DNA from: Cnuella takakiae
GTDB taxonomy: Bacteria > Bacteroidota > Bacteroidia > Chitinophagales > Chitinophagaceae
NCBI RefSeq assembly: GCF_001953305.1
Contig: NZ_MTFE01000010.1
Span: forward strand, 1,862,715 to 1,926,714
DNA length: 64,000 nt
Direction: 5' to 3'
The position numbers and the translations under genes are program-made. Of this stretch, positions 13,948 to 42,673 are shown piece by piece (positions within the stretch are counted from its first letter, which is position 1; every line of letters begins with the position of its first letter). The notes under the pieces are model-generated. The model made no database searches, was not told the DNA's origin, and saw nothing but the letters and a program-made list of their open reading frames with translations.

Positions 13948-14018
13948 TGTCACGTGGCCGAGTGGCGAGGCAAAGGCCGGCAAAGCCTTATACGGAGGTT
14001 CGATCCCTCCCGTGGCGT
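13948..14018 (+). tRNA. tRNA-Cys-like gene (GCA), copy 2, with G33
   Basis: A 71-nt cloverleaf with intact stems: acceptor TGTCACG/CGTGGCG (G-U at pairs 1-72 and 3-70), D stem GCC/GGC, anticodon stem AAGGC/GCCTT, and T stem GGAGG/CCTCC with loop TTCGATC. The D loop keeps GG, and the discriminator is U73. The anticodon loop is CGGCAAA, so the triplet GCA is preceded by G33 instead of the near-universal U33. It differs from copy 1 at many stem positions, yet pairing is kept. It may be a divergent tRNA-Cys, a specialised tRNA, or an early pseudogene. Confidence 0.7.
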
Positions 14019-14044
14019 CTTTTTATGGCAAACAAACAACAAGG

Positions 14045-22697: not shown

Positions 22698-25600
22698 ATG
22701 AGATCTAGCTTACCATTATGGAAAGGGTGTTTTGTGTGGGTGACCCAACGTTACCATCCACCAACGCTGCTTTTATTGCTGCTGCTATTTTCTTTTCAAA
22801 CCCTTTTGGCGCAGTCGCCTGTACGGGGTAAAATAATGTCGGGCGATCTGGCCCTGGCCAATGTAACGGTGCAGATCAAGGGCACCAATACGGCTACCCA
22901 AACCGACAACGATGGCAACTTCTCCATCGTGGCGCCACCAAACGCAACACTTGTGATCAGCGCCATCGGCTATGCTACGCAAGAGGTGGCTGTCAACAAC
23001 CGCACTTCCGTAAACATTGCCCTTACCAACAACACCACCCAGCTCGACCAGGTGGTAGTGGTGGGTTATGGTACCCAGCGCCGCGCCACCGTTACAGGGG
23101 CCATTGCCAATGTAAGTGGCAAAACCGTAGCCGAGCTGCCGGTGCCCAATATTTCGCAGGCCCTGCAGGGCCGCGTGGCAGGGGTGCAGGTAACCAATAA
23201 CGGTAGCCCCGGTACCCAGCCCATTGTGCGCATCCGCGGTATCAGTTCTATTTCCTTTGCTTCCGACCCCCTGTACGTGGTGGATGGTTTCCCCACCGGC
23301 GACCTTTCTACCATCGACACCCGGGATATTGAGTCGGTAGACGTGTTGAAAGATGCTTCTGCCGCTGCCATCTATGGCTCGCGTGCCACCAACGGTGTGA
23401 TCATGATCACCACCAAAAAAGGCCGCCGCGATGGCAAGGTGCATGTAAGCCTCGACTCTTATTATGGCATCCAGGAAGTAACCAGCCGCCTCGACCTGCT
23501 CGATACCGAAGGATTCAAAAAATACGCACAGGCCTACCGTGGCAGCCTTCCCGGCCGCCTGTTACCGCCAGAGGTGGATAAACCCATCTACGCCGGTGCC
23601 AACCAAACTTATGGCCAAACCAATACCGACTGGCAGGATGCTTACTTCCGGACCGGCACCATGACCCAACACAACATTGGCCTGAGCGGCGGCAATGATG
23701 TGTCGCGCTTTTATACCTCTGCGGGTTATATGGACCAGCAGGGTACGGCACCCAGTGTGGCCTACCGCCGGTACAATTTCCGGATCAACTCCGACCATAA
23801 TTTCGGGCGTTTCACCTTTGGCCAAAACCTGTACGGTGCTTATGGCGACCAGGGTTACGACAACAACGAAACAGGCTCCCGCACCAACCTGGTAAACGTG
23901 ATCAGGATGATGCCCCATATGCCTGTGTTCGACCCCACTTCCAATGGTGGCTACCGCGGTGTAAACAGCGTGCTGGATGGCGGCGATCCCACCAACCCTG
24001 TTGAGGATGCCGCCCTTAAAAATCCCGGCAGCAGGCGTACGGCAAAAATCCTGGGTACGGCATTCCTGGAAGTAAACTTTACCCGCTGGCTGAAGTTCCG
24101 CTCCACTTTTGGGATTGATTATGCCAATGGACTCGATTACCGCTTCTCTCCCATATTTAATAACAATGGTACTGTTGCCGGCTCCAGCGCCACCGTGGCT
24201 ACGGTTACCAACAACCGTTCTGCCTCCACGGTATTGCTGTTTACCGAGCAGCTTTCTTTTGACAAAACCTTTGGCGACCACCATGTAAACGCCATTGCCG
24301 TATACGAACAGCAGGGCCAGAAAATACGCAATGAAAACGCCAGCGGCCAGCAGCCATCCAACGAACTGCGCACCCTCAACAATGCCAGCAATGTGGCTGT
24401 GCAAACCCTTTACGGCGAAAACACCCTGATGTCGGTGCTGGGCCGGGTGAACTATGACTACCGGAGTAAGTACCTGGTAAGTGCCGCCATCCGCCGGGAT
24501 GGTTTGTCGGTATGGGCGCCCGGTAAAAAATGGGCCACCTTCCCCTCTGCATCCATAGGCTGGCGCATCGACCAGGAAGAGTTCATGAAGGGTGCTTCCA
24601 AAATTTCTGAATTGAAACTGCGTGCCGGTTATGGCGTTACGGGCCTCAACGGCGTGGTGCTGGGCAACACACCCTGGCTTGTAACGGTAAACGCCAACAG
24701 TGCGGCCTATCCTTTTGGCAACAGCCTGACCGCTGGGCCCGCATCTTCCATCCAGCGCCTGGGCAACCGCGACCTGGAGTGGGAAAAAACCAAGCAACTC
24801 AACATCGGTGTGGACCTGGGCCTGCTGCGCAACAGGATCACCCTGTCGGCTGAGTATTTTAACCGTAAAACCGACAACCTAATCCTGAGCGTGCCCCTGC
24901 CACCTTCGATGGGCTTTATTACCAGCACCGTATCGCAAAACATCGGGGCCATGGAAAACAACGGTGTGGAACTGCAGCTGGGCTACAACGACCGCGAAGG
25001 CGATTTTAAATGGAATGCCAATGCCAACTTCAGCGCCATCAAGAACAGGGTTACCCGGATGGCTCCCGGCGTAAGCAATATTGAAGCGGGTTCCGACGCC
25101 GACTTTGGTGCCGACAATATTACCCGCACCCAGGTAGGCGAGGCCATCCAATCGTTTTACGGCTGGGTGGTGGAAGGCATCTTCCAGGATTCTGCCGATG
25201 TGCGTGGTCATGCCAAGCAAAGGGACGGTACCGGCCCCGGCGACCTCAAGTTTGCTGACCTCGACAAAAATGGTGTGATCGACCGCGAAGACCGCCGTTT
25301 CCTGGGCAGCTTCCTGCCCAAGTATACCTATGCCTTCAATCTGGGCGCCAACTACCGCAACTTTGATGTGTCTGTTTTCTTCCAGGGTGTGCAGGGCAAC
25401 AAAATTTACAATGCCACCCGCGTGATCACCGAAGGCATGGTGCGTTTCTTTAATGCCGGCACACAGGTGCTGAATGCATGGACGCCTGCCAACAGGAACA
25501 CCAATATTCCCCGTGCCGCCTCGAGCGATCCCAACCAGAATGCAAGGCCTTCAACCCGCTTCCTGGAAGACGGATCTTACCTGCGGTTGAAGAACCTCAT

Positions 25601-25829
25601 CCTGGCTTACAACGTTCCCGGCAACACCTTGCAGTCGCTTACAAAAGGTACGGTTAGCAATTTCCGCATTTATGTTTCGGCGCAAAACCTGTTGACCCTA
25701 ACTGATTACTCGGGTTACGATCCGGAAGTGGGCAACCGCACTCCGGGTTCTTCGCTCACCAACGGCATCGACTTCGCTGTGTACCCACAGCCCAAGTCGT
25801 ACCAAATAGGTGTGCAGGTAAATTTTTAA
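22698..25829 (+). CDS. SusC-like TonB-dependent outer-membrane transporter 2
   Basis: This 1043-aa SusC homologue has a long N-terminus ending in a signal peptide (poly-Leu core, cleavage near residue 39, TLLAQ). A CarboxypepD_reg-like domain (about 42-120) follows. The plug begins with LDQVVVVGYGTQRRATVTGA and contains DASAAAIYGSRATNGVIMITT; the large barrel ends IGVQVNF. The start is ATG 22698; no later in-frame Met would keep the signal peptide. It forms a unit with a SusD-like lipoprotein (74 bp downstream) and an ASPIC/UnbV protein. No anti-sigma STN domain is visible, so it is a transporter rather than a FecA-type transducer. The substrate is unknown. Confidence 0.95.
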   Translation: MRSSLPLWKGCFVWVTQRYHPPTLLLLLLLFSFQTLLAQSPVRGKIMSGDLALANVTVQIKGTNTATQTDNDGNFSIVAPPNATLVISAIGYATQEVAVNNRTSVNIALTNNTTQLDQVVVVGYGTQRRATVTGAIANVSGKTVAELPVPNISQALQGRVAGVQVTNNGSPGTQPIVRIRGISSISFASDPLYVVDGFPTGDLSTIDTRDIESVDVLKDASAAAIYGSRATNGVIMITTKKGRRDGKVHVSLDSYYGIQEVTSRLDLLDTEGFKKYAQAYRGSLPGRLLPPEVDKPIYAGANQTYGQTNTDWQDAYFRTGTMTQHNIGLSGGNDVSRFYTSAGYMDQQGTAPSVAYRRYNFRINSDHNFGRFTFGQNLYGAYGDQGYDNNETGSRTNLVNVIRMMPHMPVFDPTSNGGYRGVNSVLDGGDPTNPVEDAALKNPGSRRTAKILGTAFLEVNFTRWLKFRSTFGIDYANGLDYRFSPIFNNNGTVAGSSATVATVTNNRSASTVLLFTEQLSFDKTFGDHHVNAIAVYEQQGQKIRNENASGQQPSNELRTLNNASNVAVQTLYGENTLMSVLGRVNYDYRSKYLVSAAIRRDGLSVWAPGKKWATFPSASIGWRIDQEEFMKGASKISELKLRAGYGVTGLNGVVLGNTPWLVTVNANSAAYPFGNSLTAGPASSIQRLGNRDLEWEKTKQLNIGVDLGLLRNRITLSAEYFNRKTDNLILSVPLPPSMGFITSTVSQNIGAMENNGVELQLGYNDREGDFKWNANANFSAIKNRVTRMAPGVSNIEAGSDADFGADNITRTQVGEAIQSFYGWVVEGIFQDSADVRGHAKQRDGTGPGDLKFADLDKNGVIDREDRRFLGSFLPKYTYAFNLGANYRNFDVSVFFQGVQGNKIYNATRVITEGMVRFFNAGTQVLNAWTPANRNTNIPRAASSDPNQNARPSTRFLEDGSYLRLKNLILAYNVPGNTLQSLTKGTVSNFRIYVSAQNLLTLTDYSGYDPEVGNRTPGSSLTNGIDFAVYPQPKSYQIGVQVNF

Positions 25830-25902
25830 GGAACTGTCGCTAAACGATTCCAATTACCCGCCGCCTGGCGGAATAAAATATGGAACATCAAACTAAAGGA
25901 TC

Positions 25903-27429
25903 ATGAAACAAAACATAACCAAGGTATTTGTTGCGGGCTTTATTGCGCTGGCAGCGATCAATGCCTGTTCGGAAAAGCTGGATGTGCTGGACACCAACAA
26001 CCCCACCACGGAAAGCTATTTTAAAACTGCAGGGGAGCTGCAAAATGGCGTCAATGCCATCTACTCCACCCTTCGTTCGGCCAACCTGGTGGGCCGCGAA
26101 TGGTTTTTTCTACGCGATATGCGCAGCGGTGAAACGGCACCCGGCGGTCCCCAACTGGAGGCGCCCCGGGCTGAGCTGTTGTTGCAGACCAATGGCGCTC
26201 CTTCCAACTCGGTGCTTTCCAGCGTTTGGACCGGCGCCTACCAAATGATCAACCGGGCCAATATGGTATTTCTGAAGGCCCCCGATATCACCGACAATAT
26301 CGCACTGCGCGATCAGTTAGTAGGTGAAGCTAGGTTTTTGCGGGCATGGGCTTATTTCGAACTGGTGTCGCAATGGGGCGATGTGCCGCTATATACCGAG
26401 CCGGTAAATGCGCCTACCGACTACAAGGGCAAATCGCCTGCAGCTGAAGTATATGCCCTCATCATTCAGGACCTGACCCAGGCAGCACCGGCACTGCCCG
26501 AAGTGCCTTCGCAGCCCGGCCGTGTTACCCGGGGTGCTGCCAATGCCCTGCTGGGCAGGGTGCAGATGCAGAAAGGCGATTATGCCGCTGCCAAGGAAGC
26601 GCTGCTTAAAGTGGTGAACTCAGGTAAGTATATCCTGGAGCCGAACTTCCTCCACAATTTTGATGGGGATGTAATGTCCAATGGCCAGAAGGTAGCCGAC
26701 GGCCATGAGTTCAACCGCGAGTCGGTATTTGAAGTGGCCTTTGTAGACAAGGGCGATAACAACTTCAACTGGGGCTATAACGGCGAAGGAATTGCGCAGC
26801 CCGTAAGTACGGTACACAACCAGGAGTATGGTATTGTATGGGGCAATGTCATTCCTTCCGACCGTTTGCTCAACGAGTTTGAACCCAACGATCCCAGGTA
26901 TAAGTTTTCCTTTTACGAACCCGGCGACCAGATACTAACCTTCGCCGGAACCAAGCCTGGCAAAACCCTCACCGCCGCCGATATGAACGTGGCTGCCAGC
27001 ACCCGCAATGGGGTAACAGCAAAAAGGGTTTTCCGTAAATATTCCATTTACGATTGGGACGACAACGGCTTTCACCCCGGAGGCGTTAACCACCGTTTGA
27101 TCCGGTATGCCGAGGTGCTGCTGATGCTGGCCGAATGCGAGGTTGAACTGGGCAACCTGGGTGCTGCTGCCGGTTATATCAACCAGGTGCGGGCACGCCC
27201 CAGTGTAAACATGCCGCCCATCACCATTGCTTCTAAGGAGCAGGGTATCCGCGCAGTAATGCACGAAAGAGCCGTAGAGCTGGGTATTGAGAGCCTGAAC
27301 AACACCGATATCCTGCGCTGGCGCAAGAAGGGGTACTATCCCTCCATTATGCCCGATCCCCGGCCTAACCAGCAGGAGTTTCTGCCCATACCGGCTTCGG
27401 AAACTGCTGCCAACCCATTGATCAAGTAA
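25903..27429 (+). CDS. SusD/RagB-like lipoprotein 2
   Basis: This 508-aa lipoprotein has the lipobox AINAC (Cys22). SusD-type landmarks are TTESYFKTAGELQNGVNAIYSTLR, VGEARFLRAWAYFELVSQWGDVPLY, RYAEVLLMLAECEVELG, and the C-terminal MHERAVELGIESLNNTDILRWRKKGYY. It is the surface partner of the preceding SusC. A strong terminator follows at 27450-27480, so the ASPIC/UnbV gene downstream may have its own promoter or depend on read-through. Confidence 0.95.
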   Translation: MKQNITKVFVAGFIALAAINACSEKLDVLDTNNPTTESYFKTAGELQNGVNAIYSTLRSANLVGREWFFLRDMRSGETAPGGPQLEAPRAELLLQTNGAPSNSVLSSVWTGAYQMINRANMVFLKAPDITDNIALRDQLVGEARFLRAWAYFELVSQWGDVPLYTEPVNAPTDYKGKSPAAEVYALIIQDLTQAAPALPEVPSQPGRVTRGAANALLGRVQMQKGDYAAAKEALLKVVNSGKYILEPNFLHNFDGDVMSNGQKVADGHEFNRESVFEVAFVDKGDNNFNWGYNGEGIAQPVSTVHNQEYGIVWGNVIPSDRLLNEFEPNDPRYKFSFYEPGDQILTFAGTKPGKTLTAADMNVAASTRNGVTAKRVFRKYSIYDWDDNGFHPGGVNHRLIRYAEVLLMLAECEVELGNLGAAAGYINQVRARPSVNMPPITIASKEQGIRAVMHERAVELGIESLNNTDILRWRKKGYYPSIMPDPRPNQQEFLPIPASETAANPLIK

Positions 27430-27449
27430 ATAAAAACCGCATGGTACAG

Positions 27450-27480
27450 GGGCTGCTCCGCTTAGGGCAGCCCTTTTTTT
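27450..27480 (+). terminator. Terminator after SusD 2
   Basis: GGGCTGC (27450-27456) pairs with GCAGCCC (27467-27473), followed by seven T. Confidence 0.9.
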
Positions 27481-27750
27481 GCGCTGCAGCCTTTCCAATT
27501 TACAGCAGGTTGCAACTTCGTGTATACGCGGAATCTTCAAGGATAGCTTCGTGCGGGGCAGGCGGTGAAACCGCATGCAGCAGCAAGTTGCTGTTACGCA
27601 AATGGGGGCGGGTAATATTTAGACAAAATGAAAACAAGCCCGGCAAGAAAGCTGCATTGGAAGTGGGTTTCTGTTTAAATTGAAGTCCTGATGCGCCTTG
27701 CAACAGCTACTGCTTTTGATTGGTTAACGCTTTTGCTTATACGCTACCAT

Positions 27751-30700
27751 ATGCCACACCATACCTTGGAGAAACATTTTCTGTTGCTGCTTTGTTTGCC
27801 GGCCCTGTTGTTGGCTCTGGGTTGTGGCCGAACAGAAGAAGGCCCTGCCTTGTTTACCCCGCTTTCCGCAAAACAAACCGGCATCCAGTTTATCAACAGG
27901 GTAGAAGAGGTGGATTCCACCAAGTCCTTTGTCAACGAGTTTGGCTATATGGGTGGTGGCGTGGGCATCGGCGATTTCAACAAGGATGGTTTACCCGATA
28001 TCTTTTTTACCGGCAACCAGGTAAGCTGCAGGATGTACCTCAATAAAGGCGGCAATCAATTTACCGATATTACTACTGCCGCAGGTTTGCAAACGCCGGT
28101 ATGGGCAACAGGGGTGAGCGTGGTGGATATCAACAGCGATGGCTACGACGATCTGTACGTGTGCACCTATGGCAAAGACCTGAACAACCGGACGAAGAAC
28201 CTACTCTTTATCAACCAGCGCAACCTCACCTTCCGGGAAGAGGCCGCGCAGTACGGCCTTGCCGATACCGGCTATTCGTCACAGGCAGCCTTCCTGGATT
28301 ATGATAAAGACGGCGACCTCGATATGTACCTCGCCAACTACATGCTCAATGGGCCCAATGCCAATACCCTTTTTAGAAAAGACAGTTCGGGGCGGGCACC
28401 TGCCAGCGACCGCCTTTACCGAAATACAGGGTACAACAAAACGCTGGGTCACCCGGTGTATGAAGACGTGACGGTGGCTGCGCATATGGGCGAAGACGGC
28501 TTTGGCCTGGGCGTGGTAGTGAGTGATGTTAACAACGACAACTGGCCCGATATCTATGTGGCCAACGACTTTGTGTCAAACGATATCCTTTGGCTGAATA
28601 ACAAAAAAGGCGGTTTTACCAACTGCTCCGAAAAGTCCCTCCAGCATACCAGCTACTCCAGTATGGGTGTGGATGCTGCCGATATCAACAACGATGGCCT
28701 TTCCGACCTGGCAACACTTGATATGCTGCCCGAGTTCAACGAACGGAAGAAGACCTCTTTTTCCATGATGAACTACAACCGATATGAAAGTGAGCGGCAG
28801 ATGGGCTACCAGCCCGAGTTTGTACGCAATATGCTCCAGCTAAACAGGGGTACTTACCAGGAGGGTGAAACGGATATGCCCTTTTTCAGCGAAATAGGAC
28901 AGATGGCCGGCATTGCCGCCACCGACTGGAGCTGGAGCGTGCTCCTGGCCGATTTTGACAATGACGGCTGGAAAGACATGCACATCACCAATGGCATCGG
29001 AAGGGATTTCATCAATGGCGATTTCCTGGAATTTAGCGAGCAGCAGTTGAGTGATCCATTTGAACCGGCTGAAAGGAAGAAACAAAAGATCCGCGAAAAG
29101 CTGGCTTCCCTGAAACATATAGCCCTCTCTAACTACCTGTTTCAAAACAAGGATGGCCACCACTTTACCGACATTTCGGAGCAGGCCCATATCGGCGATA
29201 CCTCCATGTCGAACGGTGCTGCCTATGCCGACCTGGACAACGACGGCGACCTGGACCTGGTTGTGAATAATATCAACAGCGAAGCTTTTATCCTGCAAAA
29301 CAATACGGCGCAAGGGGCAAAGAACTCGAGCCATTACCTGCAATTCAACCTGGTAGGCGAGGGGACCAACCTCCAGGCCATGGGCGCCAAAGTGTGGGTA
29401 TATGCCGGCGGCCAGGTACAGGTGCAGGAGCAAAACCCGGTGAAAGGTTATTACTCCAGCGTGGATCGAAGGCTGCATTTTGGTTTGGGAAAACAGGACC
29501 GGGTAGACTCGGTAGTGGTGCTGTGGCCCAACGATAAAGTACTGGTGTTGGCCCAACCCAGAACTGATACAATTTATACGCTAAGCGTTGCCGATGCCGG
29601 GCGGTTCTTTAACCCTGAAAAACCTGTGGGCAACACCTTGATGGAGCCGCTGCCTTCAATGGCCTATCTCCACCGCGAAAACCCGTACAACGATTTTGAC
29701 CAGCAGCGACTGTTGCCCCAAAAGTTTTCAGGGTTGGGGCCCTTCATGGCTACCGGCGATATCAATGGTGATAGCCTGGCTGACCTTTTTGTAGGCGGCG
29801 CTTTCAACAGCCCCGGTAAGTTGTTGGTGCAACAACCGGATGGGAATTTTATACCTAAAGATTTAACCACCGGCATTAAGATGAATGACGATGGTCCCGC
29901 CGCCTTTTTCGATGCTGATAAAGATGGCGATCTCGACCTGCTGCTAACTTATGGTGAAACCAGTTACGCCGATGGGGTACCACAGCTTAAACCTTCTTTG
30001 TTTTTAAACGACGGCAAAGGAAACTTTACCCTACAACAATCAGCCATTCCCGATGGCGTAAGCACCATTGGGGGCTGCGTGGCCCCTGCCGATTATGACG
30101 GCGATGGCGATCTCGACTTCTTTATCGGCGGCCGGGTATCGGCAAGGAGCTACCCGCAGGCACCGCGGAGTTTTTTGCTGCAAAACAATGGGGGCCGCTT
30201 TACCGATGTGACTTCCCGGGTGGCGCCGGCTTTGGAAAGGGCAGGCATGGTAACAGCAGCATCCTGGAGCGACTACAGCGGCGATGGTAAACCCGACCTG
30301 GTTGTAACCGGCGAATGGATGCCCGTGCGTTTTTTTACCAATAGCGGCGGCGCCCTTCACGAAGCAACAGGAGCCACCGGTTTAAAAGATATGGAAGGCA
30401 TGTGGCGCTCGCTGGCCCTGGCCGACACGGACGGCGATGGCGACCAGGATATTGTAGCCGGAAACTTAGGCGCTAATTGTATCTACAAGGCCAGCCCGGC
30501 ACAACCCATGCAACTGATGGCAGCAGATATGGACAAGAACGGCAGCATCGACCCTGTGATGTTTTACCATATCCGGGAGCAGGACGGGCGCAGTACCCTG
30601 CGGCCAGCCATCAGCCGGTCCCAGTTTGCCGAACAGGTGCCCGCCATTAAGAAGCAATACCTGCGGTACGCCGACTATGCAAAGGCCGATGCGAACGATA

Positions 30701-31621: not shown

Positions 31622-34600
31622 ATGATCAAGCATTTGCGACTGCTAATCGTCCTGCTGCTATTTAGCACGGCAGTACTAGCACAAAGACAGCTGAGTGGCA
31701 TTGTGCGCAATGCCCAAACCGGATCGGGACTGGCTGCGGCCACCGTGAAGGTGCAGGGCCAGAACGTGCAAACGGTTACCGGCTCGGAAGGCAACTTCAA
31801 TCTTTCGGTGCCCTCCGGAAGTGTGGTGCTGGAAGTATCTTATGTAGGCTTTGGCACCAAGGTGGTGCCGGTTGCCGCCAACGAAACCGATGTTATTATT
31901 GCTTTGGATGCCAATTCGGCCGAGCTCACCCAGGTGGTGGTGACCGCCCTGGGCATCAGCAAGGAATCGCGCAAACTGGGTTACTCGGTAACCACGGTGA
32001 GTGGCGAACAAATGACCAAGGCAAGGGAAACCAACCTGGCCCTTTCGCTGGCCGGCCGCGTGGCTGGTCTGAATGTAAAAGGCACCAGTGGTGGCCCCGG
32101 TGGTACGGCCAAGATCCTGCTGCGCGGTATGCCCAGCATGAACTCGGGTGGCTCCCCGCTTTTTGTGATCAACGGTGTGCCCATCGACAATACCCAGCGC
32201 GGCAGCTCGGGTGAGTGGGGCGGTGCCGACAACGGCGATGGCATTGGTAACCTCAACCCCGATGATATTGAATCGATGACGGTGCTGAAAGGCCAGTCGG
32301 CGTCGGCACTGTATGGCGCCCGTGCCTCCAACGGTGTGATCCTGATCACTACCAAAACGGCCAAGAAGGGTACTTTCTCGGTGGATTACAATATGAACTA
32401 TGCCATGGAAAAAGCCATGGACCTCACCGACTTCCAATACGTATATGGCCAGGGTGTTGGCGGTAAAAAACCGGCTACTGTAGCCGAGGCTTTACAAACC
32501 TCCCGTATGAGCTGGGGTAGCCGCCTCGATGGTTCTCAGGTAATCCAGTTTGACGGTAAAACTTACCCTTATACTGCCTATAAGGATAACCTGGAAGACT
32601 TTTACCGCACCGGTTCGGCTTTCACCAACACGGTAGCATTGACCCGTGGTGGTGAGAACGGCTCGTTCCGCCTGTCGCTTTCCAACCTGGATAATAATTC
32701 CATTGTACGCAACAGCGGTTTGGATCGTAAAACCATCAACCTGAATATAGAGCAAAAGCTTACCGACAAACTGAGCGTAAACCTGCTGGCAAACTTTATC
32801 AACGAAGACTCCAAGAATCGTCCCCAGTTAAGTGATGGTCCCATGAACCCCAACAACGGGTTATTCCTGGCCACCAATATCAACCAGTCGGTTCTGGGTA
32901 TCGGTTACGACCCCGCCACGGGTTACGAAACCCGCTGGGGTGATGACGAGTATGTAACCAACCCCTGGTTTGTGGTAAACCGGTATATCAACAACCTGGG
33001 CCGGAAGCGCTTGATTTCGGCCATTACCGCCCGCTACCAGTTTACCAGCTGGCTGTATGCCCAGGGCCGTGTTGGTTACGACCAGCAGAATGACCGCCTC
33101 TTTAAAGTAGAACCCTGGGGAACCGCTTATACAACCGAGCGCAGGGGTAACCTGCAGGACCAGGCCAACAGCGAGTCGTACGAGCTGAACGTGGATGGTT
33201 TGATTGGGGCAACGCACAAAATCACCAGCGATCTTTCGGTAGACGCTACAGTAGGTGCCAATATGCGGAAGAATCAATATGAGCGCATCCGCATCGGCGG
33301 CGGCCCTTTCATCCTGCCTTACCTGTATAGCTTCAACAACGTTCGCAACTTCAACCGCGATTACAGTTTCTGGAAAACACAGGTGAACTCGGCTTATTAC
33401 AACGTAGACTTCAGCTTCCGCAATTTCCTGACCCTGAGCACCTCGGGCCGCTACGATGCTTATTCTACGCTGCCTTCCAACAACAGGGAAATCTTTACGC
33501 CCTCCGTTTCGGCAAGCCTCATTTATTCGGAGCTGCTGAATATGCCGGCAATCAACTTTGGTAAGCTCCGTGTTTCCTGGGCCAATACCAGCGGTGAAAT
33601 TGGCGAGGCTTACAGAACGGCCCTGTACTACTCTTTGGGCAACTCGCTCAACGGCGTTCCTTTGGGTAGCTTCAGCTCCGACCTGCCCAACCTCACCCTG
33701 AAGCCTTTCACCCTCAGCGAAATTGAAGTAGGTACCGAGCTCCGGATGCTGCGCAACAGGCTGGGTTTTGACATTGCTTATTATACCCGCAAAACAAAGA
33801 ACGAGATCATGCCTGCCACCTTTAGTGCCGCCACCGGCTTTACCAGTGGCCTGGTAGGTACGGGCTCTACCAAGAACGCGGGTCTGGAAGTACAGGTTAC
33901 CGGCGTGCCCATCCAGCAGCGCGATTTCCGCTGGAACGTAACCGCCAACCTCACTACCGTTGAAAACCGCATCCTGGAAACCGATGCCGAAGGCAAAAAC
34001 CAGGGCCTGGGTTCCAACAGGGCAACCCTGGGTAATGCCATCACGGCTTTTGTAAAAGGGTTTGCCGGCCCGCAGATTCTGGCCTACGACTACAAGCGTG
34101 CTGCCAGTGGGGATATTGTGGTAGATGCAAACGGTTACCCTGTTCGGGGCGACCTGATTAAGATGGGCAGCGTGCTGCCTACAGTGTATGGTGGCTTGAA
34201 CAACGAGTTTAGCTACAAAGGCTTCAACATGTCTTTCCTGGTAGATTATAACTACGGCAACAAGGTACTTTCTGCTACCAGCTATTACTCCATCTTCCGC
34301 GGGTTGAACCAAATGACCCTGGAAGGTCGCGAAGGTGGTATCACGGTTGGCGTACTGGAAAATGGAACCAAGAACACCGTTGCTGCCGATGCGCAGGGTT
34401 ACTACCGCTCGCTGGCACAGAATGTAACTTCCATTCACGTGCAGGACGGTGATTTTATCAAGCTGCGCCAGGTGGTGCTGGGTTATACCATCCCAGAGAA
34501 CCTGCTCCAGCGTGTGCCCCTGTTCCAGTCCATCCAGGTTTCACTGGTGGGCCGCAACCTGGCCATCCTGATGAAAAAGACCGACAACATTGATCCGGAA

Positions 34601-34705
34601 GCCAGCTTTGGCTCCAATATCCGGTATGCAGGCATCGAAGGCACCAGTTTGCCCACAACCCGCACTTATGGTATCAATGTCAATTTCAAATTCAAAAACA
34701 AGTAA
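31622..34705 (+). CDS. SusC-like TonB-dependent outer-membrane transporter 3
   Basis: This 1027-aa SusC homologue has a compact signal peptide (MIKHLRLLIVLLLFSTAVLA) and a CarboxypepD_reg-like domain. The plug begins LTQVVVTALGISKESRKLGYSV, a variant in which the usual VVVVGYG is VVVTALGI. It contains SASALYGARASNGVILITT, and the barrel ends GINVNFKFKNK. ATG 31622 is preferred over a TTG at 31556. The susD-like gene starts 1 bp after its stop. This SusC group (VTALGI) usually pairs with SusD-like_2 proteins, as here. Confidence 0.95.
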   Translation: MIKHLRLLIVLLLFSTAVLAQRQLSGIVRNAQTGSGLAAATVKVQGQNVQTVTGSEGNFNLSVPSGSVVLEVSYVGFGTKVVPVAANETDVIIALDANSAELTQVVVTALGISKESRKLGYSVTTVSGEQMTKARETNLALSLAGRVAGLNVKGTSGGPGGTAKILLRGMPSMNSGGSPLFVINGVPIDNTQRGSSGEWGGADNGDGIGNLNPDDIESMTVLKGQSASALYGARASNGVILITTKTAKKGTFSVDYNMNYAMEKAMDLTDFQYVYGQGVGGKKPATVAEALQTSRMSWGSRLDGSQVIQFDGKTYPYTAYKDNLEDFYRTGSAFTNTVALTRGGENGSFRLSLSNLDNNSIVRNSGLDRKTINLNIEQKLTDKLSVNLLANFINEDSKNRPQLSDGPMNPNNGLFLATNINQSVLGIGYDPATGYETRWGDDEYVTNPWFVVNRYINNLGRKRLISAITARYQFTSWLYAQGRVGYDQQNDRLFKVEPWGTAYTTERRGNLQDQANSESYELNVDGLIGATHKITSDLSVDATVGANMRKNQYERIRIGGGPFILPYLYSFNNVRNFNRDYSFWKTQVNSAYYNVDFSFRNFLTLSTSGRYDAYSTLPSNNREIFTPSVSASLIYSELLNMPAINFGKLRVSWANTSGEIGEAYRTALYYSLGNSLNGVPLGSFSSDLPNLTLKPFTLSEIEVGTELRMLRNRLGFDIAYYTRKTKNEIMPATFSAATGFTSGLVGTGSTKNAGLEVQVTGVPIQQRDFRWNVTANLTTVENRILETDAEGKNQGLGSNRATLGNAITAFVKGFAGPQILAYDYKRAASGDIVVDANGYPVRGDLIKMGSVLPTVYGGLNNEFSYKGFNMSFLVDYNYGNKVLSATSYYSIFRGLNQMTLEGREGGITVGVLENGTKNTVAADAQGYYRSLAQNVTSIHVQDGDFIKLRQVVLGYTIPENLLQRVPLFQSIQVSLVGRNLAILMKKTDNIDPEASFGSNIRYAGIEGTSLPTTRTYGINVNFKFKNK

Positions 34706-34706
34706 C

Positions 34707-36320
34707 ATGCGGAAAAGCTTTCTATATATCTCCCTTGTGGCTGCTGTAACGGGTACGGGTTGTACCAAGGATTTTGATGAAATCAATACCGATCCCACCC
34801 GGTCGAGCCCTGCCAATTTTGACCCCAACTATTTCCTTTCTTCCAGCCAGTGGGAGCACGCCAATGCCATCTCGGGGTACAACGGTCCTATCCTGTTCCA
34901 AAGCGGCTGGGTACAGATCTTTGCCTCCACGTCTTCGGGTGCGGCCAACTACTACTCCAATGCCGATAAGTATGTGCCTTCCAGCAATACCAATACCTAC
35001 CTGGGTAGTTCCTGGAACGTAGCCTACCGTTCGGCCAGCCTGGCCAACGAGGCTATTGAAACCACCACCAACCGCCCCGAACTGTCCAACCTGGCCAATA
35101 TCGCCACCATCATGAAGGTGCTCAATGCGCAGTACCTCACCGATACTTATGGCGATATCCCCTACACCCAGGCCCTGCAGGCCAAGACCAATGTCACCCT
35201 GCCTGTTTACGACAAACAGCAGGATGTATACAAGGCCATGCTTGCCGACCTGGATGCGGCCGTTGGCAAACTGGATCCTGCCAAAACCGGCCCCACCGCG
35301 GACCTGTTTCCTTATAAGGGCAATGTTGCACAATGGAAACGTTTTGGCAACTCGCTGCTGCTTCGCATGGCCATGCGCCTGGTAAAGGCCGATGCTGCCC
35401 TGGCAAAACAGTATGCTGAAAAAGCAGCTGCAGGTGGCACCCTTGCCAGTGTTGCCGACGACGCCTTCATTAAGGGCGATGAAGCCAATGGCTACCGCAA
35501 TGCCAATACCGCTGCATTGAATGTTGCCGGTGACTTTTATGAAGTGCGCTGGAGCAAAACCCTGATCGATTACCTCAAAGGCACCAACGATCCCCGTGTA
35601 GGTGTGATTGCCGAAGTGCCGGCTGCCGGCCTGGCAGGCAACCAAAGCTTTGGACTGGCGGGCAACAACGATCCGGCCATACAAAAAGGGCTGCCCAATG
35701 GCTTTGACCTGAACGCAGGCGCTACCGATATCAGCAAGTCGCCCGGTTATGCAGGTGGTACCGGCACCGGTGCCGACTTTACCCCCATCGGCCAGTACTC
35801 CCGTCCCCGCAGTGCCGTTTATGGCAACTACAGCGGTCCTGTATTCGTGCTTTCCTATGCCGAGTCGGAGCTGCTGCTGGCTGAAGCGGCTGTCAGGGGC
35901 TGGAATGTAGGCGGAACTGCCGCCCAGCATTATGCCAATGCACTGGGTGGCGCCATCCAGTCGCTGGGTGCTTTTGGTGGCGCAGCAACGGTGCCTGCTG
36001 CAACGGTTACGGCCTATGTTGCCGCGCATCCGCTGGATGTGTCTTCCCAAACGGCTTCGCTTAAAATGATCAACGAGCAATACTGGGCAACCACCGGTGT
36101 GCAGCTGAATTTTTCAGAGGCCTGGAATAACTGGAAACGCTCGGGTTATCCTGTGCTGACACCGGTTAACTACCCCGGTAATTTTTCGGGCGGCGCCATT
36201 CCCCGCAGGCAGCCTTACCCGCTTTCGGAAGCTACCCTCAACGGTGCCAACTACAGCACCGCGGTAGGTGGCCTCACCGGTGGCGATGTATGGACCTCGC
36301 GGTTGTGGTGGGACAAATAA
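34707..36320 (+). CDS. SusD-like lipoprotein 3 (SusD-like_2 type)
   Basis: This 537-aa lipoprotein has the lipobox TGTGC (Cys19) followed by KDFDEINTDPTRSSP, the usual start of the SusD-like_2/SusD homologue group. Family features include SLANEAIETT, MKVLNAQYLTDTYGDIPYTQAL, RFGNSLLLRMAMRLVKAD, VLSYAESELLLAEAAVRGW and EAWNNWKRSGYPVLTPVNYPGN, and a C-terminal end in WTSRLWWDK. The frame is open from 34590 inside susC, but ATG 34707, one base after the susC stop, gives the signal peptide. This spacing implies translational coupling with its SusC. Confidence 0.95.
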   Translation: MRKSFLYISLVAAVTGTGCTKDFDEINTDPTRSSPANFDPNYFLSSSQWEHANAISGYNGPILFQSGWVQIFASTSSGAANYYSNADKYVPSSNTNTYLGSSWNVAYRSASLANEAIETTTNRPELSNLANIATIMKVLNAQYLTDTYGDIPYTQALQAKTNVTLPVYDKQQDVYKAMLADLDAAVGKLDPAKTGPTADLFPYKGNVAQWKRFGNSLLLRMAMRLVKADAALAKQYAEKAAAGGTLASVADDAFIKGDEANGYRNANTAALNVAGDFYEVRWSKTLIDYLKGTNDPRVGVIAEVPAAGLAGNQSFGLAGNNDPAIQKGLPNGFDLNAGATDISKSPGYAGGTGTGADFTPIGQYSRPRSAVYGNYSGPVFVLSYAESELLLAEAAVRGWNVGGTAAQHYANALGGAIQSLGAFGGAATVPAATVTAYVAAHPLDVSSQTASLKMINEQYWATTGVQLNFSEAWNNWKRSGYPVLTPVNYPGNFSGGAIPRRQPYPLSEATLNGANYSTAVGGLTGGDVWTSRLWWDK

Positions 36321-36334
36321 TATTTCCTATGGCA

Positions 36335-36367
36335 AAAGACAGGGTGCCGTAGTGCCCCTGTCTTTTT
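36335..36367 (+). terminator. Terminator after SusD 3
   Basis: AAAGACAGGG (36335-36344) pairs with CCCTGTCTTT (36356-36365), followed by TT. It separates the SusCD pair from the ASPIC/UnbV gene, as in module 2. Confidence 0.8.
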
Positions 36368-36531
36368 GCTATCCCTAACTTTCGAATCAGTGGATCGGTA
36401 GCTTTCTATGAACCTGTTGTTTATCCAGTAGCATGCGATTGTTGTTTGTGGTAATGGGGTATAACAATGGAATTATAAATAGGCAACTGAACCTTAATCC
36501 CTAAATTGGAAAGGGTCAATAAATCCTTGCC

Positions 36532-39500
36532 ATGAGTTTTGTATCCGTAACAACTGCATGTGGCGCGGTGGGCAGCAAGTTCCGCCATGCGTCATTTGTG
36601 CAGTTAACCCTTCTTTTTTTGTGCCTTCAGGGTACAGCCCGTAGCCAGGGGCCGCTATTCCAGCTACTGCCTGCCGCTCAAACAGGCATCCAGTTTCGCA
36701 ACGATATCCGCGAAGACGAAAACCTCAATATTCTTGCTTACGAATACTTCTACAACGGTGGCGCGGTAGCCGTGGGCGATATCAACAACGACGGTCTGGA
36801 AGACCTCTTTTTTACCGCCAACATGAAGCCCAATAAGTTGTACCTCAACCAGGGCAACCTCCAATTCAAAGACATTACCCGGCAAGCAAGCGCAGCCCTC
36901 GAAGGCCGCAGCGGCGGCTGGAAAACCGGCGCCACCATGGCCGATGTAAACGGCGATGGCCTGCTGGATATTTACCTATGTTATTCCGGCAAGGTTAAAG
37001 ACGACCTCCGCCGCAACCAGCTATTCATCAACAAAGGCAACAGCAGTTTCGAAGAACAGGCAAAAGCATTCGGGCTCGACGATCCGGGCTACAGCACGCA
37101 GGCCGCGTTTTTCGATTTTGACAATGATAAAGACCTCGACCTCTTCTTGCTCAACCACAACGTGAAGAAGTACGACAACATGCAGCTGGCAAAGTTTCGT
37201 ACCGAAACCGACCCGCTGGCGGGCAATAAACTATTCCGCAACGATGGCGGCCGTTTTAAAGATGTGTCGCAGCAGGCAGGCATTTACCAGTACCCGCTCA
37301 CCTTTGGGCTGGGCATTGCCATTGCCGATATCAACAAAGACGGCTGGCAGGATGTGTACGTCACCAACGACTACAACGAACCCGATTACCTCTACATCAA
37401 CAAGGGCGATGGCAGTTTCACCGAGCAGTCGGGCAACAGTTTCCGGCACCTTTCCCAGTTTTCAATGGGCGTCGACATTGCCGATTTCAACAACGATGCC
37501 CTGCCCGATATCATCACCCTCGACATGCTGCCCGAAGACAACCGCCGGCAGAAACTCCTGCAGCTGCAGGAAAACTACGAAGCCTTCGAGCTGATGCAAA
37601 GCCAGAACCTGCACCGCCAGTATATGCGCAACATGCTGCAGCTGAATAATGGTGATGGCACTTTTAGTGAGATCGGGCAGTTGGCAGGTGTAGCGGCTAC
37701 CGACTGGAGCTGGTGCCCGCTCTTTGCCGATTTCGACAATGATGGTTTTAAAGATCTTTTTGTTACCACCGGTTATCTCCGCGATTATACCAATAAGGAT
37801 TTCCTGCGCTACTGGGGCGATTATAAAATCAAGAAGGCCATCGACAAGGAGCCCATGCTGCTGATGGACCTGGTAAAAGCCATGCCGGTAACGCCGTTTC
37901 GCAACTATGTGTACCGCAACAACGGAGACCTTTCTTTTGCCAACAAGCAACAGGAGTGGGGCTTTGTGCAGGATAAGTTTTCGAGTGGTGCAGCCTATGC
38001 CGACCTGGACCGCGACGGCGACCTGGATCTGGTGATCAACAACCTGAACGAGGAAGCATTTGTGTACCGCAATGGGAGCCGCGAAACTATGGGCGCCAGC
38101 TACCTGTCGCTGGAATTAAAAGGTAAAGGAACAGAGCCGGTGCTGGGTACCAAGGTCTATCTCTATAACGGTGGCGCAACACAATACAGCGAGGTAAACC
38201 CGGTGCGTGGCTACTTGTCTACGGTAAGCCTGAACCCGTTTTTTGGTCTGGGAAAAACGGCGCAGGTTGACTCCCTGCGGATTGTTTGGCCCGACAGAAG
38301 CGTACAGGTACTGACCGGCGTTGCTGCCAACCAGCATCTGGTTGTTAATTATGCACCTGCTGCAAAAGAACAGTCTCAAACTTCTATAAAGCCCCTGATG
38401 GTGCGTACCGAACCCATCATCAAGTATAAGCACGAAGACTTTACCGAAAATGATTTCAAGCGGCAGTTGCTGATGTTGTGGATGTATTCCAAAACAGGCC
38501 CGGTAATGGCACGTGCCGATGTAAATGGCGATGGCATGGAAGACCTGTTTATCAGCGGCGACCAGAAAGGCCCGGGCAAAATTTATCTGCAGGGTAAAAA
38601 CGGTTTTGCGCCCCTCGACTCGCTTGGCTTTGGCGATGAGTCGGCATCTGCAATAGCAGCAGCTACCTTCTTTGATGCCAATGGTGATGGCTACCCTGAC
38701 CTCTACCTGGCCAAGGGTGGCTACTCGCTTTTTGAACCCAACACACTTTCGCTGCAGGACGAACTATACCTCAATGACGGTAAAGGCTCCTTTACCCGCA
38801 GTGCCGGCGCCCTGCCCAATATGAGTGCCAGCAGCAAGTCGGTTGTGCGTGCCTGTGACTATGACGGCGATGGTGATATGGATCTTTTTGTAGGCGGGCG
38901 GGTTGTGCCCGGTGCATACCCTACAGCGCCTAAAAGTTTCCTGCTGAAGAACAATGGCAGAGGCATGTTCCTGGAAGTGAAAACACCTTTTGCTGAAGCC
39001 GGGATGATAACCGATGCGCAGTGGGCCGACCTGGATGGCGATGGCCGGAAAGACCTGGTGCTGTGTGGCGAAATGATGCCGGTAAAGGTGTATGGTAATA
39101 CCGCTGCCGGTTTTGTGGATCAAACAGGAAAGTATTTCGACCAGCCTGAAAGCGGCTTTTGGTCCAGCCTTGCTGTGGAAGATATGGATGGGGATGGAAA
39201 GCCGGAAATCATCGCGGGAAATTTAGGCGCCAACACCAGGATCAGGGCTTCGGCAAAGGAACCTGCCGAACTGTACTATGCCGACTTTGACGGCAATGGA
39301 TCGATTGATCCTTTCTTCAACTTTTACGTTCAGGGCAAAAGCTATCCTTTTGTGAGCCGCGACGAACTCAACGAGCAGATCTATCCTATGCGCCGCAAGT
39401 TCACTTCTTACAAAGATTACGCTGATGCCACCATGCAAACCATTTTTACAAAACCAGAATTAGATACTGCCAAAAAGCTGACAGCTACTGAAATACATTC

Positions 39501-39855
39501 TGTCATTTTCCATAACAAAGGCGGGCTTTTTGAAAAAACGGTGTTGCCTTTACCTGCGCAGTTTGCAACCGTTGCGCGTATCCTAACGGGTGATTTTAAT
39601 AAAGATGACAAGAAGGATTTGCTGTTGTTGGGCAACCAGTCGTTCAACCGCCTGAAAATCGGCAGCATTGATGCCAACTACGGCTGTATGCTGCAGGGTG
39701 ATGGCAAGGGCGGCTTTAGTTACCTGCCGCAAACTGCTTCCGGATTATGTATCATCGGCGATGTGAAGTCGGCGGAAGTAATGGCCGTAGGCAACCGCAA
39801 GATGCTGGTGATAGGTATTTGCAACGATGCGCTTCAAACTTATATCATGCACTAA
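36532..39855 (+). CDS. FG-GAP/VCBS repeat protein with ASPIC/UnbV domain 2
   Basis: This 1107-aa exported protein is a paralogue of the gene at 27751. It has repeated FG-GAP/VCBS blades (DINNDGLEDLFF, DVNGDGLLDIYL, DFDNDKDLDLFL, DLDRDGDLDLVI, DYDGDGDMDLFV) and an ASPIC/UnbV domain near residues 533-600 (TKVYLYNGG, NPVRGYLSTVSLNPFFGLG). The shared block RNMLQLN...FSEIGQxAGxAATDWSW occurs at the same relative position in both. It has a signal peptide (about 1-38) without an obvious lipobox, unlike its paralogue. It is followed 9 bp later by a haloperoxidase-like gene. Function is unknown. Confidence 0.9.
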   Translation: MSFVSVTTACGAVGSKFRHASFVQLTLLFLCLQGTARSQGPLFQLLPAAQTGIQFRNDIREDENLNILAYEYFYNGGAVAVGDINNDGLEDLFFTANMKPNKLYLNQGNLQFKDITRQASAALEGRSGGWKTGATMADVNGDGLLDIYLCYSGKVKDDLRRNQLFINKGNSSFEEQAKAFGLDDPGYSTQAAFFDFDNDKDLDLFLLNHNVKKYDNMQLAKFRTETDPLAGNKLFRNDGGRFKDVSQQAGIYQYPLTFGLGIAIADINKDGWQDVYVTNDYNEPDYLYINKGDGSFTEQSGNSFRHLSQFSMGVDIADFNNDALPDIITLDMLPEDNRRQKLLQLQENYEAFELMQSQNLHRQYMRNMLQLNNGDGTFSEIGQLAGVAATDWSWCPLFADFDNDGFKDLFVTTGYLRDYTNKDFLRYWGDYKIKKAIDKEPMLLMDLVKAMPVTPFRNYVYRNNGDLSFANKQQEWGFVQDKFSSGAAYADLDRDGDLDLVINNLNEEAFVYRNGSRETMGASYLSLELKGKGTEPVLGTKVYLYNGGATQYSEVNPVRGYLSTVSLNPFFGLGKTAQVDSLRIVWPDRSVQVLTGVAANQHLVVNYAPAAKEQSQTSIKPLMVRTEPIIKYKHEDFTENDFKRQLLMLWMYSKTGPVMARADVNGDGMEDLFISGDQKGPGKIYLQGKNGFAPLDSLGFGDESASAIAAATFFDANGDGYPDLYLAKGGYSLFEPNTLSLQDELYLNDGKGSFTRSAGALPNMSASSKSVVRACDYDGDGDMDLFVGGRVVPGAYPTAPKSFLLKNNGRGMFLEVKTPFAEAGMITDAQWADLDGDGRKDLVLCGEMMPVKVYGNTAAGFVDQTGKYFDQPESGFWSSLAVEDMDGDGKPEIIAGNLGANTRIRASAKEPAELYYADFDGNGSIDPFFNFYVQGKSYPFVSRDELNEQIYPMRRKFTSYKDYADATMQTIFTKPELDTAKKLTATEIHSVIFHNKGGLFEKTVLPLPAQFATVARILTGDFNKDDKKDLLLLGNQSFNRLKIGSIDANYGCMLQGDGKGGFSYLPQTASGLCIIGDVKSAEVMAVGNRKMLVIGICNDALQTYIMH

Positions 39856-39864
39856 GGTTTACAT

Positions 39865-41205
39865 ATGAAAGGCATTCTGATCTTATTGCAGTTTTTGGTG
39901 TTTGGCTTGCTGGCCCAGGCAAGGCCCGCCGATGATTATACCAGGCTGGTGCAACCCGCCGTATTTTCCCTTTCCCGGGTGATGATGCATGACGTGGTGA
40001 ACCCGCCGGCTGCCAGCCGTTATTATGCCTATTGCCTATTGGGTGCTTACCAGTTGGTTGCGCAAAATAATTCCACGGTTCCTGCGCCCCAGTTACTGAT
40101 TCGCCATTACCCCGCGCCACAGCAAGGGGGCAAAACGGTTGCCTATCGGCTGGCTGCTTTATTCTCAATTTTGGAGACAGGCAAACTATTACTGCCCTCG
40201 GGTTATATGCTGGAGCAGGACATTGCCGACCTGGTGGTGAAACTGCAAAAAAGAAAAGTGCCGCAGCGGGACATTGATACGGCTATTGCGGTAGCACAAA
40301 GAACCGCGGCACACATTGTTGCCTTTTCCAAAAAAGATGATTACGGTAAGCTGAGCGCCAAATTGCGCTATACCCCACTAAAGGAAGAAGGTCGCTGGTT
40401 CCCTACACCGCCCACCTATATGGAGGCGGTAGAGCCCCACTGGAAAACGGTGCGCCCCCTGGTGATCGACTCCTGCAACCAGTTTGCTCCACAGCCACCC
40501 ACGGCGTACAGTAAAGAGCCGGGCAGCGATTTTTACAGGCTGGCAAAAGAGGTGTATGATCTATCCAAAAAGGCCACCCCGGAGCAGCTGGAGATCGCCG
40601 CCTTTTGGGATTGCAACCCTTTTGCCGTTGCTACTTCAGGGCATCTGTCGCTCGGTTTTAAAAAGATAAGCCCGGGTGGTCACTGGATGAATATTGCTGG
40701 CATCGCAGCCCAAAAGGCAGGGTTGGATTTTGATGCAACCGTACTGTTGCAAACATCCGTGGCCATTGCGTTGATGGATGCTTTCATCAGCTGCTGGGAC
40801 GAGAAGTTCCGCTCCAGCCGCATCCGCCCCGAAACCTTTATCAACAAGTATATAGATGTGCAATGGCAGCCCTTGTTGCAAACACCACCATTTCCCGAGT
40901 ACCCCAGCGGACACAGCGTGGTGTCGGCAGCATCTGCCGAAGTGCTGACTTACCTGTTGGGTGATGGTTTTGCGTATACCGATGATTCAGAGATCATGTT
41001 TGAGCTGGCACCCCGAAAGTTTCGGTCCTTCCGGCAGGCAGCCGAAGAAGCAGCCATTTCGCGGTTGTATGGCGGTATTCATTTCCGTGATGCCATCACG
41101 CAGGGAATGGTGGAAGGGAAAGCGGTAGGGGAGACGGTGGTTGCCCGTTTAAAGCAGGCGGGTATCAAGCCATTCCAGGAAGGGGCCAGGATTGTGGTGA
41201 AATAG
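39865..41205 (+). CDS. Vanadium-dependent haloperoxidase/PAP2-family enzyme
   Basis: This 446-aa exported enzyme (signal peptide about 1-19, FGLLAQA) has the complete vanadate/phosphate-binding signature of vanadium haloperoxidases and PAP2 phosphatases. Lys314 and Arg321-Pro322 lie in KFRSSRIRP, Pro347-Ser-Gly-His350 in YPSGHS, and Ser399-Arg400, His406 and Asp409 in SRLYGGIHFRD. It could oxidise halides with H2O2 or hydrolyse phosphate esters; sequence alone does not decide. It is 9 bp after the ASPIC/UnbV gene, so the two are probably made together, and it is absent from module 2. Confidence 0.9.
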   Translation: MKGILILLQFLVFGLLAQARPADDYTRLVQPAVFSLSRVMMHDVVNPPAASRYYAYCLLGAYQLVAQNNSTVPAPQLLIRHYPAPQQGGKTVAYRLAALFSILETGKLLLPSGYMLEQDIADLVVKLQKRKVPQRDIDTAIAVAQRTAAHIVAFSKKDDYGKLSAKLRYTPLKEEGRWFPTPPTYMEAVEPHWKTVRPLVIDSCNQFAPQPPTAYSKEPGSDFYRLAKEVYDLSKKATPEQLEIAAFWDCNPFAVATSGHLSLGFKKISPGGHWMNIAGIAAQKAGLDFDATVLLQTSVAIALMDAFISCWDEKFRSSRIRPETFINKYIDVQWQPLLQTPPFPEYPSGHSVVSAASAEVLTYLLGDGFAYTDDSEIMFELAPRKFRSFRQAAEEAAISRLYGGIHFRDAITQGMVEGKAVGETVVARLKQAGIKPFQEGARIVVK

Positions 41206-42594: not shown

Positions 42595-42673
42595 CGGGTG
42601 GGTTTACCAATCGGTTGCGGCCATACTGAAAGGGTTCAAAAACAATTACTATTCGCCTGAAAAAAGAAAGGAT

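Follow-up and report, generated by a model that had tools for sequence, protein, structure and literature searches.

Two SusC–SusD–FG-GAP/ASPIC modules in Cnuella takakiae, one of which belongs to a recurrent cassette ending in a relative of vanadium-dependent haloperoxidases

Organization of the locus

A 64,000-nucleotide stretch of the Cnuella takakiae genome (contig NZ_MTFE01000010.1, positions 1,862,715 to 1,926,714), here called the window, carries two consecutive gene modules, each composed of a SusC–SusD (SusCD) import pair followed by a gene for a large protein with FG-GAP and UnbV_ASPIC domains, referred to below as an ASPIC protein. All coordinates are positions in the window unless a locus is named, and genes were assigned from lists of open reading frames (ORFs) and from scans with the Pfam and TIGR04056 profiles. 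The six genes lie on the + strand in the order SusC, SusD, hairpin, FG-GAP/ASPIC, once at 22698–31119 and again at 31556–39855, which bears out the order SusC, SusD, ~1,100-aa FG-GAP/ASPIC protein described in the initial annotation. In module 1, the SusC gene (22698–25829) scores 880 bits against TIGR04056, for which the curated cut-off is 368, and the SusD gene (25903–27429) matches Pfam SusD_RagB plus SusD-like_3 and encodes a lipoprotein-like N terminus. In module 2, SusC (31556–34705) scores 583 bits and SusD (34708–36320) matches SusD-like_2; the listed SusD ORF opens at 34590, inside SusC, and a lipoprotein-like start was placed from the sequence at ~34708. Both modules hold a SusCD (RagAB) pair, with SusC above the cut-off and, directly downstream, a SusD-family gene with a lipobox that was read by eye.

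Both ASPIC proteins exceed the curated cut-offs for FG-GAP and for UnbV_ASPIC (PF07593). The module 1 protein (27691–31119, 1142 aa) has its ASPIC domain at residues 563–630 and the module 2 protein (36532–39855, 1107 aa) at residues 538–603, so that the domain does lie at a like place in the two chains, for which residues ~535–600 had been given. In each SusD–ASPIC gap, where a terminator had been proposed, folding identified a hairpin with a T run on the + strand (27448–27475 in module 1 and ~36330–36370 in module 2). The module 1 stretch reached -23.8 kcal/mol (z -2.7; 3 of 200 shuffles folded at least as well) and the module 2 stretch -23.4 kcal/mol (z -5.8, 0 of 200). The contrasting SusC motifs quoted in the initial annotation are present, as are the differing SusD types. 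Because identity between the modules is only 23% for SusC, 21% for SusD and 41% for ASPIC, and because the genes hold separate places in both the SusC and ASPIC trees, a recent duplication of one module is ruled out, in agreement with the earlier view that the two did not arise by one simple duplication.

The two modules are not, however, the equal parallels that they were taken to be. Module 2 alone ends in a seventh gene (39865–41205, + strand), a relative of vanadium-dependent haloperoxidases (VHPO) of the PAP2 superfamily that begins 9 bases past the ASPIC gene, and module 2 groups with other cassettes that contain a VHPO. This gene had been overlooked, even though the interval originally described stops at 41205, its last base.

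The haloperoxidase relative and its cassette

Pfam identifies the module 2 terminal protein as PAP2 only. The single sequence aligns along almost its entire length with the Zobellia galactanivorans VHPO chain (E 6e-116 against PDB 4cit; see also 4usz), and a profile built from 13 relatives matches the same chain at E 3e-197. VHPO loci were taken as the best 80 of at least 586 relatives in named genomes. In the alignment of these 80, residues W311, K314, R321, S348 and H350 are kept throughout, G349 is kept in 79 (one A), and R400 and H406 are each kept in 79, with one gap; the K, R, SGH, SR and H positions are those that we take to form the vanadate pocket. The Zobellia protein was reportedly characterized as an iodoperoxidase in a 2014 paper. 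The window protein differs from it in that it appears to lack a lipobox and is encoded in a SusCD–ASPIC cassette. The window gene is a relative of the Zobellia haloperoxidase; the corresponding activity is a prediction, and the pocket would also be compatible with a phosphatase.

When small ORFs were passed over, an ASPIC gene was next upstream in 75 of the 80 VHPO loci, a figure that describes close relatives, as the 80 are the best of a longer list. In three of the 75 (L224, L246 and L254) a second VHPO gene lies between the ASPIC and VHPO genes, and the five loci without an ASPIC gene next upstream are L203, L209, L235, L245 and L250. SusC and SusD are also found upstream in 49 of the 75. 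The ASPIC and VHPO genes are closely spaced, with gaps of -4 to +5 bases in 44 of 75 cases and of -86 to +191 in 72. These 75 cassettes are distributed over at least 13 families, chiefly of the Cytophagales, Chitinophagales and Sphingobacteriales, and the genera most often represented are Dyadobacter (11), Mucilaginibacter (11) and Niastella (4). Two samples of genomes not picked for VHPO were also counted. The first, of 38 relatives with the own genome among them, has 32 VHPO matches at or above 468 bits, 10 of them with a same-strand ASPIC gene within 3 kb upstream and 19 within 8 kb, where 0.06 and 0.15 are expected. In a set of 118 genomes of the phylum, 14 of 29 VHPO matches above 450 bits have an ASPIC gene within 3 kb upstream and 19 within 8 kb. 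The ASPIC–VHPO link is thus looser in genomes not chosen for VHPO, and still strong. Module 2 is an instance of a recurrent cassette of the form SusC–SusD–hairpin–ASPIC–VHPO.

Cassettes or parts of them were also encountered on plasmids. Plasmid 2 of Gemmatirosa (Gemmatimonadota; L277, 857288–878517) carries SusC–SusD–ASPIC–VHPO–ASPIC–SusC–SusD on one strand, and an opposite-strand SusC fragment is located between the VHPO gene and the second ASPIC gene. The NCBI annotation of a Hymenobacter volaticus plasmid (L276) lists a TonB receptor, SusD, a VCBS protein, two hypothetical proteins, a haloperoxidase and a member of glycoside hydrolase (GH) family 3; the VHPO gene of this plasmid (L276:9893–11274) is divided between two ORFs that overlap, and may be a damaged copy or reflect a sequencing error. 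No ASPIC gene was found beside the VHPO of an Adhaeribacter plasmid (L275). In Arenibacter palladensis, the locus has the order ASPIC–ASPIC–VHPO.

Of 52 related SusD–ASPIC gaps, 38 contain a terminator-like hairpin; ten dinucleotide shuffles gave 0–2, and the reverse strand of the gaps gave 25. It is infrequent elsewhere in the cassette, occurring at 5 of 75 junctions between ASPIC and VHPO and in 8 of the 74 regions that follow VHPO. The SusD–ASPIC gaps of L175, L176, L177 and L179, which rank with the closest relatives of module 2, yielded no such hairpin, and a scan of the window by itself was noisy (43 sites against 25.5 expected). The position of the hairpin after SusD suggests that SusCD may be made in excess of ASPIC and VHPO, which would then depend on read-through.

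Association of ASPIC proteins with SusCD

The C. takakiae genome has ten ASPIC matches and 42 SusC genes above the cut-off. Eight of the ten ASPIC genes stand in a SusCD run, where chance would place ~0.2 of ten within 5 kb, given 42 SusC genes on two strands of 5.7 Mb. Of the 35 SusC loci of this genome outside the ASPIC modules, 20 were examined, and one holds an ASPIC match. Genes on the opposite strand separate this displaced gene (G000:C1:5081069; L053, L272) from the SusCD pair to which it probably belongs, and sister loci in genomes G033 and G091 keep the usual order. A further ASPIC ORF (G000:C1:3758179; L051, L173) is very long, at more than 2600 aa, with a same-strand SusD upstream.

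A PF07593 search of the 118-genome set gave 201 matches in 53 genomes, and the best 150 of these plus one match from the own genome were examined. They comprise 102 long (at least 1000 aa), 10 middle-sized and 39 short (<800 aa) proteins. In a distance count, same-strand upstream genes were required at no more than 5 kb for SusD and 7.5 kb for SusC; the count includes one gene with opposite-strand genes between. By this measure SusC and SusD are close upstream of 58 of the 102 long ASPIC genes, in 17 of 24 genera, compared with 2 of the 39 short genes and 1 of the 10 of middle size. Both window proteins carry the PF07593 domain in its long, SusCD-linked form, and the short proteins were rejected as members of the same system. 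The count of ASPIC genes behind SusCD pairs across the phylum, proposed as a check in the initial annotation, thus came out far from random, and the functional link between SusCD import and the propeller proteins that was suggested there gains support from it, from the own-genome loci and from the co-divergence reported below. A VHPO gene lies within 5 kb downstream of 22 of the 102 long ASPIC genes, in 10 genera, and 13 have both SusD and VHPO. Counting by gene order gave, for the 102, SusC and SusD in 57, VHPO in 27, and SusD and VHPO in 21. Six of the 151 matches fell outside the ORF scheme first used for that count, in which a gene may be masked by a longer antisense ORF because ORFs were chosen greedily; the distance recount placed all 151. 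Counts from a TIGR04056 scan of 28 genomes, considered as a control for gene density, were set aside, as they cover ~20 top candidates per genome. The SusCD–ASPIC association is far above chance.

Co-divergence of SusC and ASPIC

Trees of 172 ASPIC and 109 SusC sequences were built with FastTree, with some long branches flagged. The VHPO share of their clades is partly a matter of choice, because many rows (73 of 172 ASPIC and 48 of 109 SusC) were fetched through their VHPO. The module 2 ASPIC falls in a clade of 28 rows, starred in the tree, all of which are VHPO-linked; this clade is nested in one of 77 rows with 76 VHPO-linked, and among the 7 rows of the larger clade not fetched via VHPO, 6 are VHPO-linked. 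Over the whole ASPIC tree, 27 of the 99 rows not fetched via VHPO are linked to one, 21 of them outside the 77-row clade. The module 1 ASPIC belongs to a starred set of three with SusD and without VHPO, inside an 11-row set that holds two VHPO-linked rows. For SusC, the module 2 protein is placed in a 28-row clade (local support 100) containing 27 VHPO cassettes, 25 of the rows having been fetched as such; two of the three rows not fetched via VHPO are VHPO-linked. The module 1 SusC lies elsewhere in the tree, and its closest relative (L135, 70% identity), from a genome of the same family (G091), is ASPIC-linked without VHPO.

Pairwise SusC and ASPIC distances are correlated over 88 cassettes (r 0.745), a value reached in 0 of 2000 permutations. 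Shuffling partners within genomes, which keeps the species history, also failed to reach it in 2000 trials (mean 0.652, maximum 0.744). For the 28 cassettes of the 10 genomes with several cassettes, r is 0.453, and none of 5000 shuffles was as high (mean 0.112, maximum 0.438). SusC diverges together with its own ASPIC protein, even when partners are swapped within the genome.

Predicted structure and localization of the ASPIC proteins

The assignment of the ASPIC proteins as double propellers draws on Pfam, sequence, motifs and tree for module 1 and on Pfam, sequence, tree, a structural model and VIA-align for module 2. An AlphaFold2 model of the module 2 protein has a mean pLDDT (predicted local distance difference test score) of 91.0 and a pTM (predicted template modeling score) of 0.89. 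Residues 40–611 of the model superimpose on cartilage acidic protein 1, CRTAC1 (PDB 9etn), with Z 37.7 and a root-mean-square deviation of 2.4 over 461 aligned residues (VIA-align), and residues 617–1107 are modeled as a second propeller, with which the chain terminates. The predicted fold thus joins a second propeller to a CRTAC1-like core: the FG-GAP propeller and ASPIC domain are common to both proteins, whereas the bacterial one has the additional propeller and is encoded in import operons. Matches of the C-terminal half to LGI1 and aldos-2-ulose dehydratase were dropped as a guide to function, because propellers match one another widely. DxDxDG-like loops, usually taken as calcium sites, number 12 in the module 1 protein and 11 in the module 2 protein.

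The module 1 ASPIC protein has a lipobox (LALGC) followed by acidic residues. The module 2 ASPIC and VHPO proteins have signal-peptide-like N termini, and neither has a lipobox. This state is general in the module 2 clade (clade A), where, of 26 ASPIC and 26 VHPO proteins, a lipobox was assigned to none and to 1, respectively; in the related clade B, it was called in 23 of 31 ASPIC and 22 of 31 VHPO proteins, and among the remaining 16 pairs in 3 ASPIC and 1 VHPO (26 of 28 and 31 of 34 rows of clades A and B were scored). Since the lipobox is missing from both module 2 proteins and almost throughout their clade, a periplasmic site is the likelier one for them, and they are probably a periplasmic pair. 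Over the 73 pairs together, 17 have both proteins anchored, 40 neither, and 9 and 7 are mixed (Fisher p 2e-5).

Neighboring genes

Module 2 may extend beyond the VHPO gene, which is followed on the + strand by a gene for a ROK-family regulator or kinase (41389–42594, Pfam) and, overlapping it, one for an alpha-L-fucosidase of family GH29 (42578–44125, Pfam). NCBIfam assigned a family to neither of the ASPIC proteins, nor to the module 2 SusD, the PAP2 protein or the GH29 protein. A ROK relative occurs somewhere in 15, and a GH29 relative in 14, of the 80 VHPO loci. Carbohydrate-active enzymes (CAZymes) in the SusCD–ASPIC runs of other genomes include GH30, a glycoamylase family, GH16, GH3, GH65, GH43, GH92 and others; the Pfam neighbor counts cover 86 of 118 neighbors (including the window's VHPO) and 82 of 109. 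As these enzymes are varied, the ASPIC protein would seem to be a general component rather than the reader of one glycan. In one SusCD–ASPIC locus (L088:10681–12009, genome G033) a multiheme cytochrome c-like gene is located between SusD and ASPIC, with GH30 immediately past ASPIC.

The modules resemble polysaccharide utilization loci and the SusCD utilisome in their SusC–SusD core and accessory exported proteins, and CAZymes and regulators lie near many of the related loci. They differ in that the accessory protein is a CRTAC1-like double propeller of some 1100 residues and that module 2 has a VHPO relative and what appears to be an unanchored ASPIC protein.

Elsewhere in the window, positions 4902–13228 look like a sulfated-glycan locus, with SusC (4902–8078), a sulfatase (9676–11313), a 3-keto-disaccharide-hydrolase-like ORF and an FGE-sulfatase-domain protein (12134–13228); a + strand ORF at 8205–9662 is overlapped there by a longer antisense ORF. 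Two tRNA-Cys genes with identical anticodons (13479–13551 and 13948–14019) are ~400 bases apart. A sensor-like protein of 1018 aa with Reg_prop and Y_Y_Y domains is encoded at 51025–54081, ~7 kb downstream of the fucosidase.

Interpretation

The SusCD–ASPIC–VHPO partnership is real and strongly recurrent, and represents a new form of SusCD operon. A search of open-licence papers (titles, abstracts and passages) found no description of a link between SusCD and ASPIC or VHPO; one draft-genome note lists both a haloperoxidase and SusD without linking them.

The reading that we favor, to which we give about an even chance, is that both modules are SusCD import operons, each with a dedicated FG-GAP/ASPIC partner, and that in module 2 this partner is paired with VHPO, probably in the periplasm. 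The ASPIC protein, a two-propeller structure probably stabilized by calcium, would bind or dock a substrate or a protein on behalf of the SusCD pair that it accompanies. In module 1 it would be lipid-anchored, probably facing outward, and may serve in the manner of a surface-binding protein. In module 2, the ASPIC and VHPO proteins both look like soluble Sec exports of coupled genes and would most likely form a periplasmic pair that handles or oxidizes what SusCD imports. Given the ROK and GH29 genes downstream, the substrate may be a glycan that contains fucose, and VHPO may oxidize halides or phenolic parts of the substrate. Iodine uptake by Arenibacter C-21, whose genome has at least five homologues, needs oxygen, glucose and calcium, with a dependence on peroxide also reported (PMC5064120), and passages of a Zobellia study report vIPO3 to be up-regulated on a brown alga (PMC9296495). 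Both would fit such oxidation chemistry by analogy, and neither proves anything for the module 2 cassette.

Several observations weigh against this interpretation. The remaining 26 of the 75 ASPIC–VHPO pairs have no SusC and SusD directly upstream, although 13 of these have one or the other elsewhere in the locus, and for 44 of the 102 long ASPIC genes SusC and SusD are absent from the stretch searched, so that some long ASPIC proteins probably function without SusCD. Among five VHPO-like matches in the own genome, two directly follow an ASPIC gene, one is two ORFs behind and two are not near one. VHPO linkage is not the property of one lineage, with 16 changes on the ASPIC tree. For the 36 within-genome pairs alone, the raw SusC–ASPIC correlation is modest (r 0.34; SusD–ASPIC 0.81). 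With regard to glycans, the nearest CAZyme is the GH29 gene two genes past the module 2 VHPO; there is none inside module 1 and none between the genes of module 1 and module 2. The lipobox rule is crude, calling only 48 of 62 SusD proteins. Finally, the coupling of ASPIC and VHPO anchor states, with few evolutionary switches, is not significant in an independent-pairs test; it is therefore told here as a clade-level fact only and was dropped as independent evidence for a complex.

A bolder form of the idea, tentative and on balance rather doubtful, is an importer with its own oxidant: a mobile SusC–SusD–ASPIC–VHPO cassette in which the propeller would hold VHPO at the importer, substrates would be oxidized during uptake, and lineages would have switched both proteins together between lipid-anchored and soluble forms.

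Alternatively, the ASPIC protein could be primarily a partner of VHPO, acting in its docking, maturation or stabilization, with SusCD a frequent but secondary guest. Such a role would agree with ASPIC being next upstream in 75 of 80 VHPO loci while SusC and SusD accompany only 49 of those 75, and with the existence of ASPIC–VHPO pairs without adjoining SusCD. Long ASPIC genes with SusCD nevertheless outnumber those with VHPO by either count (58 vs 22 and 57 vs 27), which argues for a VHPO-independent role, as in module 1, and we regard this explanation as unlikely.

Both ASPIC proteins might instead bind glycans at the surface in the classical way, or act as scaffolds of a SusCD utilisome. Accessory lipoprotein genes usually lie directly after SusD, the position that the ASPIC genes occupy, and in the 118-genome set a lipobox was called in 34 of 59 long ASPIC proteins with SusD linkage, in 7 of 43 long ones without it and in none of 34 short ones. 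According to passages of a study of Bacteroides thetaiotaomicron utilisomes (PMC7618045), SusCD accessory lipoproteins are established there, with surface-binding proteins on the outside. The surface receptor or scaffold offered in the initial annotation accordingly suits module 1, whose ASPIC protein has a lipobox like these lipoproteins, and suits module 2 less: its ASPIC protein and the clade around it appear to have no lipid anchor, the chain ends at the propeller, and no secretion tail was identified by Pfam. As an account of both modules, this has a small probability in our estimation.

That the PAP2 protein is a phosphatase and the cassette an importer of phosphorylated compounds seems quite improbable. 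VHPO and acid phosphatases have a common active site and Pfam reports PAP2 only; against this, the alignment to the Zobellia VHPO is nearly full-length, the only acid-phosphatase chain returned by the VHPO profile search is weak (E 0.93), and W311 and K314 are invariant in the 80 relatives. Another alternative is acquisition of halide or iodine, in which VHPO would make reactive iodine and ASPIC and SusCD would help in uptake of the product. The closest solved relative is the Zobellia enzyme, said to be an iodoperoxidase, and both the requirements of Arenibacter C-21 noted above and the A. palladensis locus point the same way; the CAZyme, ROK and GH29 neighbors, however, indicate carbohydrate, and we know of no iodine uptake in Dyadobacter, Mucilaginibacter or Niastella, the commonest cassette genera, so that we hold this to be a very slim prospect. 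Chance or general clustering of outer-membrane genes, which the abundance of SusC in the own genome might suggest, is refuted by expected counts far below those observed, by the near absence of linkage for short ASPIC proteins and by the co-divergence of the partners, and has a practically negligible probability.

To our knowledge, neither ASPIC/UnbV proteins nor the bacterial VHPO of heterotrophs have a clear physiological role. A cassette that ties ASPIC, VHPO and SusCD together merges these two questions into one experiment, and it suggests a halide-based oxidation, a chemistry that is seldom considered for glycan uptake.

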